From a virus, in IMG/VR virus record IMGVR_UViG_3300044797_000032, positions 1 to 32,003 of that record: a stretch of 32,003 nt of DNA; one strand, given 5' to 3'. The notes beneath the pieces are model-generated. The model ran no database searches. It was not told the DNA's origin and was given only the letters and a program-made list of their open reading frames with translations. Each line of letters opens with the position of its first letter. Position 1 is the stretch's first letter. Shown one piece after another: positions 18,000 to 19,715 of this stretch. The position numbers were made by a program, and so were the translations under genes.

Positions 18000-18544
18000 G
18001 CGCCGACTCCTTGGGCTACCGCGATCAGCGCCTCAATTCGCGCGTCCGAGGCGACCAGAAGCTCAGCCACCTCCTTCGCGTCATAAACGGAAGCCGTCGT
18101 GTAGTTGAAGATGTTGGCCCCACGCGTAATGCGCAGCGTCGTGGAGCCGTTCCCTTTCGCTTGCGTTACGACTACGGTCGCTTTGCCATCGATGTATGCA
18201 ACGTGGCAACCATTCATGATGTCGGTCCACTCTAACACATGGATGGGAGGAGCGGGCGGTTGCACCATCGAGCGCAAGTCATCAGAGGCATTAATGTGCT
18301 CGATGATCTTGGACGCAATGTCATCGCTGCCCATGATCTCTGGTATCGCACGGAGGAATTCTGGTTGGTGCACAACCCAAGCTATCACCTCATCGGCATC
18401 GAGGCACTCAAGAAGTTCCTCGGCTTGTGGATCGAAAATCTCAATCACCTCGTTGAGGTCCAGCGCCTCGGTGATATCTTCCTTGGTGAGTGAAACTTCG
18501 ACTTCCTTCGTTACCGTAAAGCACTCATCTTTGTAATGTAACAT
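17996..18544 (-). CDS. Hypothetical acidic protein, 182 aa
   Basis: I chose ATG 18544 (MLHYKDECF) because its GGAGTTAATGACC leader aligns base for base with the leader of the 81-aa gene start at 19150. In-frame ATGs at 18550 and 18559 are alternatives. The first 100 residues are acidic and helical (EDITEALDLNEVIEIFDPQAEELLECLDADEVIAWVV). The second half has beta character (CHVAYIDGKATVVVTQAKGNGSTTLRI). The function is unknown. It is the first gene behind hammerhead ribozyme 1, whose predicted cleavage leaves a 59-nt leader. Confidence 0.7.
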   Translation of the reverse strand: MLHYKDECFTVTKEVEVSLTKEDITEALDLNEVIEIFDPQAEELLECLDADEVIAWVVHQPEFLRAIPEIMGSDDIASKIIEHINASDDLRSMVQPPAPPIHVLEWTDIMNGCHVAYIDGKATVVVTQAKGNGSTTLRITRGANIFNYTTASVYDAKEVAELLVASDARIEALIAVAQGVGA

Positions 18545-18570
18545 GGTCATTAACTCCATCAGATTGGGGC

Positions 18571-18632
18571 TGACTCATCAGTGCTGGTAGCCCAAAGCCA
18601 GCATACGCCGCTACGGTCGCGGCGTTTCGTCA
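18571..18632 (-). ncRNA. Hammerhead ribozyme type II, copy 1
   Basis: Read on the minus strand from 18632: helix II 3' arm TGAC, core GAAA (18628-18625), helix III with six-bp arms CGCCGC/GCGGCG closed by the A15.1-U16.1 pair, cleavage nucleotide A at 18604 (triplet GUA), helix I arms TGCTGG/CCAGCA around a 10-nt loop, core CTGATGA (18581-18575) and the helix II 5' arm GTCA (18574-18571). All invariant core positions match. The order of parts is the circular permutation called type II. The TGA stop of the 92-aa gene lies in helix II, so terminating ribosomes may block or delay cleavage. The predicted cut is between 18604 and 18603. Confidence 0.9.
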
Positions 18633-18908
18633 TCGGACATTTTTCATGAAGTGGTCATGTTCCACGTTGATTGCCAACTCAGCCATATCAAGTAGCTCAC
18701 TTGGTGCTAGGTTGAACCGGCGACCAACGCGAAGCGCCACTTGTCGCTGAGTCCTTTCCCATGCGTCGGCGTGCTGCGCATCGCTCCATTCGCCACCATC
18801 AAATTGGCGATCAGCATCGGAGCCGATAGCCGCCGCCAACGCGTAAGGTTGTATCGCGTGATTAAAAGCACGGACTGCCGGATAAAGAATTGATCGCTGC
18901 GCGGTCAT
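18630..18908 (-). CDS. Hypothetical protein, 92 aa
   Basis: ATG 18908 overlaps the 81-aa gene stop (ATGA). The protein has a helical N-terminal part (RSILYPAVRAFNHAIQPYALAAAIG) and a second helical region (SDAQHADAWERTQRQVALRVGRRFNLAPSELLDMAELAI). No motif identifies it. Its stop codon is part of helix II of hammerhead 1, so its 3' end is probably set by self-cleavage. Confidence 0.65.
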   Translation of the reverse strand: MTAQRSILYPAVRAFNHAIQPYALAAAIGSDADRQFDGGEWSDAQHADAWERTQRQVALRVGRRFNLAPSELLDMAELAINVEHDHFMKNVR

Positions 18909-19150
18909 GAGCACACCTCGCTTAGATCAACCATTGTTCCGTGACACACGATCTTCGTGACATCGATCTTGTACTCGGGGGCAGGGAACTTCTTCTGGAA
19001 CTCTTTCACAAGGGCAAGCATCTCTCGCTCCGTCACACAACTCCGCTCACTGGTTGAAAAGAAGTGAAGGTATGGCGGCTGACCGTTGATTGCTGCGCTC
19101 TTATTGCGCCGTGCGACGTTGATCTCATAATGATTCTGTACCATTGACAT
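18905..19150 (-). CDS. Conserved phage protein, 81 aa
   Basis: Starts at ATG 19150 (MSMVQNHYEINVA) after GGAGTTAACAATC. The phrases YLHFFSTSERSCVTEREMLALVKEFQKKFPAPEYKIDVTKIVCHGT follow a pattern I recall from several proteobacterial siphoviruses (YEINVA...YLHFF.T.ERS...E.....L...F...FP.PEY.). The function is unknown. It is the first gene after hammerhead 2, with a predicted 59-nt processed leader. Confidence 0.72.
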   Translation of the reverse strand: MSMVQNHYEINVARRNKSAAINGQPPYLHFFSTSERSCVTEREMLALVKEFQKKFPAPEYKIDVTKIVCHGTMVDLSEVCS

Positions 19151-19177
19151 GATTGTTAACTCCGATAGATTGGGGCT

Positions 19178-19238
19178 AGCTCATCAGTACGGGTGGCCCA
19201 GGGCCCGTAGACCCACCCCTGCGAGGGTGGGTTTCGCT
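19178..19238 (-). ncRNA. Hammerhead ribozyme type II, copy 2
   Basis: On the minus strand from 19238: helix II 3' arm AGC, core GAAA (19235-19232), helix III with seven-bp arms CCCACCC/GGGTGGG plus the A15.1-U16.1 pair, cleavage nucleotide C at 19210 (classic GUC triplet), helix I arms TACGGG/CCCGTA around a 10-nt loop, core CTGATGA (19187-19181) and helix II 5' arm GCT. Compared with copy 1 the helix sequences differ but still pair, while the core and the central TGGGC of the helix I loop are kept. That is strong evidence of selection on structure. The predicted cut is between 19210 and 19209. Confidence 0.9.
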
Positions 19239-19715
19239 TTTTGATTGGTAGACTGGAGAGCAGTAGAAGTCTCTCGTTGGGGTTATCGGCTATTCCTTAT
19301 CGAATCGTAGTACCGCGTGGGGAGTCGAGGTGGCACAGAGGCAGACCGTTCACCTTCACCGGGCGCCACTCGGGCGCGCTCGAAGGGGAAAGCGACTTTA
19401 CGCGGCGTGGCTTTCGAATAGCTCACACCCCCGGAATCGTCCGGTCTAGCGAGGGGCCTAGTAGGCTTCGAGGGCGTCCGTCGAGACTCACCCCCGTTCG
19501 GGGGAGCGGTCCGCGTCGGACCGCGCTCTGTATCTCTCTGGGCCTCCGGGGTCCCGCCCCGGGCTCCTCTCTAAGAGGAGACTAGATTATCGGCCAACAG
19601 CAAACAAAAGAAAACTACTTTCTTTCCCTTTAGAATCAAAGACTTGCACGCGATTACCACTCGTTTCAAGCCTAAAAACGGGTGTTTTCCGCAAACAAAT
19701 GGTTTGCGTAACGAA
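19239..19715 (-). other. 477-bp gene-free stretch with many hairpins, candidate structured RNA
   Basis: No convincing gene lies between the primase stop and hammerhead 2. Several stable inverted repeats are visible: CTCCTC/GAGGAG (19564-19580), CCGGGG/CCCCGG (about 19545-19561), GCGGTCCG/CGGACCGC (19506-19524), CCCC-GTTC-GGGG (about 19492-19503), CCGGA/TCCGG and GCCT/AGGC. The 19320-19590 part is very G+C-rich, while 19590-19715 is A+T-rich and holds a GCAAAC...GTTTGC palindrome (19691-19707). A plus-strand frame (19241-19585) is Arg/Ser/Gly-rich low complexity and unlikely to be a protein. I infer a 3' UTR or stand-alone structured RNA processed by hammerhead 2. A replication origin is an alternative. 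Confidence 0.5.

Follow-up and report, generated by a model that had tools for sequence, protein, structure and literature searches.

Clusters of hammerhead ribozymes that flank prophage genes were described in 2011 by Perreault et al., who also proposed that these ribozymes divide phage transcripts into gene-length mRNAs (PMC3088659). Three tandem hammerhead arrangements cleaved in vitro in that work, the one from A. tumefaciens also in E. coli, and 4 of 18 consensus hammerheads were inactive (PMC3088659). In the haloviruses HF1 and HF2, the HHphage hammerhead is located 13 nt before an early replication gene, and the 5′ end of the helicase transcript was mapped within 3 nt of the predicted cut (PMC3088659). 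The Theta (HDV-like) ribozymes of gut phages also belong to the self-cleaving classes, but represent a different one and are tied to tRNA-based recoding and not to gene junctions (PMC10879173). Perreault et al. did not settle what hammerheads do in bacteria and their phages (PMC3088659), and an incomplete search of the later literature revealed neither work on phage hammerhead arrays nor an answer on their role.

The pair of hammerheads described here is located in the window, one complete IMG/VR viral contig of 32,003 bases. It shares with the RF02276 type II hammerheads the core, the open stem II, the closed stems I and III, the pseudoknot between loop I and the tail and the clustering next to phage genes, so that no difference was found in the ribozyme itself (PMC3088659). 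The HHphage hammerhead, although similarly placed directly upstream of a gene, is a core variant from viruses of halophilic archaea, whereas the window copies have the standard core. The ribozyme class, the prophage clusters and the processing idea are therefore already known (PMC3088659). Added here are copy numbers of up to 14, a measured order of stop codon, ribozyme, Shine-Dalgarno sequence (SD) and start codon, covariation between orthologous sites and cultivated Streptomyces phages with 9 to 11 copies.

Two type II hammerheads in a replication operon

The comparison with Rfam 15 (cmscan) resulted in two matches to RF02276 (Hammerhead_II) on the minus strand, HHR1 at 19239-19170 (47.6 bits, E = 5.8e-07) and HHR2 at 18632-18564 (41.2 bits, E = 2.8e-05). 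Both span positions 1-66 of the 66 model positions and exceed the gathering score of 37, and no further Rfam 15 family was detected in the whole 32,003-base record. The Infernal search proposed with the original prediction has thus confirmed what that prediction claimed, type II hammerheads inside a phage gene operon and directly ahead of genes, which is also supported by structure and position. The models for types I and III (RF00163/RF00008) had no match in the window or in 21 other records with arrays, and the control genomes were silent as well.

The catalytic core is complete in both copies, comprising CTGATGA, GAA with A15.1, and U16.1, and the permuted type II order (II-GAAA-III-UH-I-CUGAUGA-II) is present with loop-closed stems I and III and an open stem II. 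HHR1 (19170..19239, minus strand) reads AGC-GAA-ACCCACCCT..GGGGTGGGT-C^TACGGG..CCCGTA-CTGATGA-GCT, with helices II, III and I of 3, 9 and 6 bp, a C at H17 (NUH site GUC) and a predicted cut at 19210/19209 (GUC^UACGGG). HHR2 (18564..18632, minus strand) reads TGAC-GAA-ACGCCGC..GCGGCGT-A^TGCTGG..CCAGCA-CTGATGA-GTCA, with corresponding helices of 4, 7 and 6 bp, an A at H17 (GUA) and a predicted cut at 18604/18603 (GUA^UGCUGG). The invariant bases, the three pairing helices and the cut coordinates given in the original prediction agree with the sequence, the first two also with a strict descriptor that demands all core bases and three helices. This descriptor finds HHR1 and HHR2 in the window and nothing on either strand of 400 first-order Markov copies of it. 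Structure and the curated Rfam model both identify the two copies as type II hammerheads, for which self-cleavage is predicted.

Loop I (UGGGC) is identical in HHR1 and HHR2 and the tail GCCCC is able to pair with it, as in the known type II pseudoknot; in HHR1, the AGCCCC just before 19150..19169 would provide this partner. The pairing comprises 4 and 5 bp in the window copies and is supportive only, as the feature is not universal. The differences between the helices of the two copies, which had been presented as covariation, are real but constitute weak evidence with just two copies, and the real covariation comes from other phages. The plain minimum free energy (MFE) fold of HHR1 contains stem III, stem II and most of stem I. 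For HHR2, the MFE structure is a competing fold in which stem I is absent, so HHR2 may cut more slowly.

On the plus strand antisense to HHR1, a weak rnk_pseudo match (32 bits compared to a gathering score of 55) was rejected. The antisense of HHR1 stem III (19209-19237, plus strand), GGGTGGG TTTCGCTTTTTGA, resembles an intrinsic terminator, which is probably incidental.

The hammerheads are located in a minus-strand operon encoding an SNF2-like helicase, a primase-helicase (P0004), the DUF932-related P0005 (PHROG 1362), ThyX and Pol III alpha, whereas the terminase and head genes are oriented in the opposite direction. In the earlier description as an early unit, the term early is inferred from the gene content, which comprises replication and nucleotide genes. 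Each ribozyme runs straight into an SD and an ATG. Downstream of HHR1, the tail, the SD GGAG and the approach to the P0001 start codon (19150-19148) occupy 19150..19169 (minus strand), with 27 nt between the end of stem II and the ATG. P0001 (18905..19150, minus strand; 81 aa; PHROG 18878, E = 1.5e-10) is the first gene between the cuts and is followed by P0002 (18630..18908, minus strand) with an ATGA overlap; both are functionally unassigned. HHR2 stem II opens with the TGA stop codon of P0002 (18632-18630). HHR2 in turn is followed by its tail, the SD GGAG and the approach to the P0003 start codon (18544-18542) at 18544..18563 (minus strand). P0003 (17996..18544, minus strand; 182 aa, function unassigned) starts directly after GGAGTTAATGACC. 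The automated call placed the start in the same frame at 18550, which is 20 nt from HHR2 stem II, but the ATG at 18544 has the better spacing to the same GGAG. Protein family searches revealed no match for P0002 and P0003. The two copies had been placed ahead of successive protein genes; they do stand ahead of protein genes, but with the two-gene unit P0001-P0002 between them.

Between P0004 and HHR1, a region of about 475 nt (19240..19715, minus strand) has no long reading frame and, if HHR1 cuts, would become the 3′ end of the RNA released upstream. Several strong GC hairpins are found in it (CTCCTCTTAGAGAGGAG, CCGGGGCGGGACCCCGG, GCGGTCCGACGCGGACCGC and CCCCCGAACGGGGG). Its fold is no better than that of shuffled sequences (z-score -1.18), no Rfam family besides HHR1 was found, no convincing BLAST relative was found among the fetched loci, and a consensus scan revealed no sigma-70-like promoter on the minus strand. 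Possibly, this region is a structured RNA whose 3′ end is made by HHR1.

The window DNA between 16000 and 23000 matches annotated phages only over short stretches of the DUF932 gene. In IMG/VR, no relatives of P0004, P0003 and P0001 were found, nor orthologs by which stem covariation at the two window sites could be compared. Weak matches to P0001 were detected in phages of Brevundimonas, Pseudomonas and Roseobacter, including loci of Roseobacter phage CRP-9 and Brevundimonas phage Poludnitsa. For P0005, three related IMG/VR contigs (G040-G042) were found, none with a type II hammerhead, and the same holds for the annotated phages most closely related by DUF932 (S-ESS1, ZS04, Mae-JY30 and Cp1R7A-A1), which argues that this gene module can do without the ribozyme. 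In the Erythrobacter phage ZS04 (PV416405.1, 39144-40280), the DUF932-type protein, with 52% identity to P0005, is labelled as integrase, a name that is probably wrong given this match.

Placement and covariation of viral type II hammerheads

The core pattern was used to scan IMG/VR, resulting in 75 stretches, and these and other loci from the same records were surveyed. In total, 144 distinct type II hammerheads were found by the descriptor, and all copies are located on one strand in every surveyed locus. The richest records contain 14, 12, 11 and 11 copies according to a whole-record search with RF02276. Two copies within one unit, earlier regarded as notable, are indeed present in the window, but their rarity was overrated in view of such records and of the clusters published in 2011.

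An SD and a start codon within 70 nt follow 88% of the 144 copies, at a median of 25 nt from stem II, compared to 31% at random positions on the same strand and 20% on the antisense side. After clustering to 91 representatives, this rule is kept in 78. For 53% of these clusters, the open frame of the preceding gene terminates 1-10 nt upstream of stem II, compared to 4% at random positions. From both statistics, the arrangement is stop codon, hammerhead, SD and start codon; the ribozymes are thus placed like punctuation, on the coding strand and between genes. The median spacing within arrays is 702 nt, and most segments comprise one or two genes in a simple ORF call. The proteins downstream of 64 copies fall into 52 PHROGs, none of them with more than two members, and the lack of a common downstream family argues against gene-specific control. 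Among these proteins is the antirestriction protein ArdA, which was also seen beside hammerheads by Perreault et al. (PMC3088659). In one locus (L062, 4446-9172), the stems I and II of eight hammerheads are nearly identical, as would be expected if a cassette of hammerhead and ribosome binding site had recently been duplicated in a single phage.

Structured hammerheads are enriched in viruses. With one strict pattern, the full structure was present in 9 of 14 distinct matches on viral contigs, but in only 4 of the 72 matches from 257 Gb of genomes of bacteria and archaea (odds ratio 31, p = 2e-6, with the unstructured matches taken as chance background).

Compensatory changes were counted between orthologous copies, defined by the same downstream protein with at most 95% identity in different records. 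The base pair is kept in 117 of 130 double changes; at positions not forced by the descriptor, it is kept in 110 of 128, compared to about three in eight for random bases. This is strong covariation evidence, but not a formal test, as the comparisons are not mutually independent. A pairing of at least four pairs between loop I and the tail occurs in 69% of the survey compared to 32% after shuffling, and none of 500 shuffles exceeded 45%. The MFE structure retains stem III at the upstream 3′ end in 88 of the 91 clusters and stem I at the downstream 5′ end in 65. In the window, stem I of both predicted 5′ ends is 0.3-3.5 kcal/mol less stable than the MFE structure in a calculation limited to nested pairs, so protection of the 5′ end would be weaker here than across the survey. 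The accessibility of the SD showed no consistent change between the uncut and the cut state.

Probable mRNA punctuation and alternative explanations

In mitochondrial tRNA punctuation, structured elements between genes mark the cuts in a polycistronic RNA. The enzymes RNase P and Z cut there, whereas the phage RNA would cut itself. HHR1 and HHR2 probably act in this way, as self-cleaving punctuation that splits a polycistronic phage transcript. Stems I, II and III would fold during transcription, with loop I docking on the tail, and self-cleavage would follow after H17. On the gene side, the product would then carry a 5′-OH and the stem I hairpin at its front, with SD and ATG close behind, and the upstream product would end in the stem III hairpin with a 2′,3′-cyclic phosphate. 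Without any protein, the long operon RNA would be separated into several mRNAs. In the window, the predicted products of the two cuts are an upstream RNA with HHR1 stem III at its end, a two-gene mRNA of 606 nt (18604..19209, minus strand, from the cut positions) ending in the HHR2 stem III hairpin, and the remainder.

Due to the type II order, a hairpin would remain on either side of the cut, stem III on the upstream and stem I on the downstream RNA, whereas in types I and III, one end would remain open because of their order. Two hairpins, a 5′-OH and a nearby SD fit separate, decay-resistant mRNAs of gene length. Decay enzymes with a preference for a single-stranded 5′-monophosphate or 3′ end would have less access to such termini, and neighbouring genes could thereby have separate lifetimes and translation. 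Alongside the observed identity, structure and position of the ribozymes, the one-strand arrays and the compensatory changes, we infer cleavage in the cell, protection of the ends and a benefit for expression. The closest direct evidence comes from Perreault et al., with arrays cleaving in vitro, the Agrobacterium one also in E. coli, and the halovirus transcript whose end coincides with the cut (PMC3088659). If the reading is true, RNA alone would suffice for mRNA processing in some phages. Whether arrays of up to 14 copies in diverse tailed phages form a general protein-free system is more doubtful; tentatively, a whole early operon might be turned into gene-length mRNAs by ribozymes fitted between stop codon and SD, with the terminating ribosome gating the cut and a hairpin at both product ends.

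The competing reading that deserves most attention, albeit an unlikely one, is a regulated switch, in which cutting by active ribozymes is gated by salt, a ligand or the ribosome finishing the preceding gene, and cleavage would thereby serve as a readout of translation and set the expression of the next gene. The footprint size of a terminating ribosome is established, and such a ribosome would cover the GAAA strand. The short distance of at most 10 nt by which the stop codon precedes stem II in 53% of the clusters, the TGA of P0002 inside HHR2 stem II and the competing fold of HHR2 are in line with gating, as are the slow hammerhead variants discussed previously (PMC3088659). However, phage operons are compact anyway, so that stop codon and ribozyme are expected to abut without regulation; moreover, there is no common downstream gene, and 475 nt separate HHR1 from the preceding gene. 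A further reading, in our view improbable, sees functionless by-products, hammerhead cassettes with a ribosome binding site that spread by duplication and whose cutting is tolerated. HHR1 and HHR2 have loop UGGGC and the tail AGCCCCAATCT in common but little stem sequence, and the near-identical stems of L062 indicate that copying within a genome happens. Nevertheless, the compensatory changes at orthologous sites and the strict placement between stop codon and SD would hardly be expected unless cleavage at that place were under selection.

Release of the piece between two hammerheads, either for ligation to a circle or as an RNA in its own right, would suit RtcB with regard to the 5′-OH and cyclic phosphate ends, and in some Streptomyces phages back-to-back copies are only 65-67 nt apart. 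This is very improbable, as array segments usually carry one or two genes with ribosome sites, and Perreault et al. looked for circles and splice products but did not detect any (PMC3088659). Chance sequence is excluded on the figures obtained. Hammerheads are simple motifs, and in bacterial genomes most exact matches to the core pattern arise by chance (72 matches, of which 4 are structured), but both window copies pass the curated score, none of 400 random windows gave a match and both copies follow the general placement rule. The punctuation of mRNA thus remains the preferred explanation.

Arrays in cultivated Streptomyces phages

Array DNA from one of the viral records matches Streptomyces phages, and RF02276 matches were detected in the cultivated phages Alvy (11), phiScoe1 (10), Omar (9) and Andris (9). 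Since the host of Alvy is S. lividans JI 1326, the mRNA-processing idea becomes testable through the placement rule, the long one-strand arrays, the covariation and these phages, which raise its testability rather than its novelty. The known isolates PaP3, Bcep176 and Alderaan had no RF02276 match; the hammerheads of PaP3 and Bcep176 are core variants (PMC3088659). Aminoglycosides are ligands of hammerheads and also block phages of Streptomyces, with Alderaan as the phage tested (PMC9239200), and a link between both effects was dropped because Alderaan has no match.

In Alvy (NC_054669.1, 51395-51459 and 51462-51528) and phiScoe1 (OQ672741.1, 49366-49429 and 49431-49497), two type II hammerheads are located back to back on the same strand, 1-2 nt apart. 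If both copies of such a pair cut, an RNA of 65-67 nt would be released. Furthermore, the annotated starts of the Alvy (L104) CDS 89 (51201-51476), CDS 70 (45003-45833) and CDS 68 (44300-44677) are located upstream of or inside a hammerhead. The true starts probably lie after the ribozyme, and hammerheads can thus be used to flag probable wrong start codons in phage annotations.
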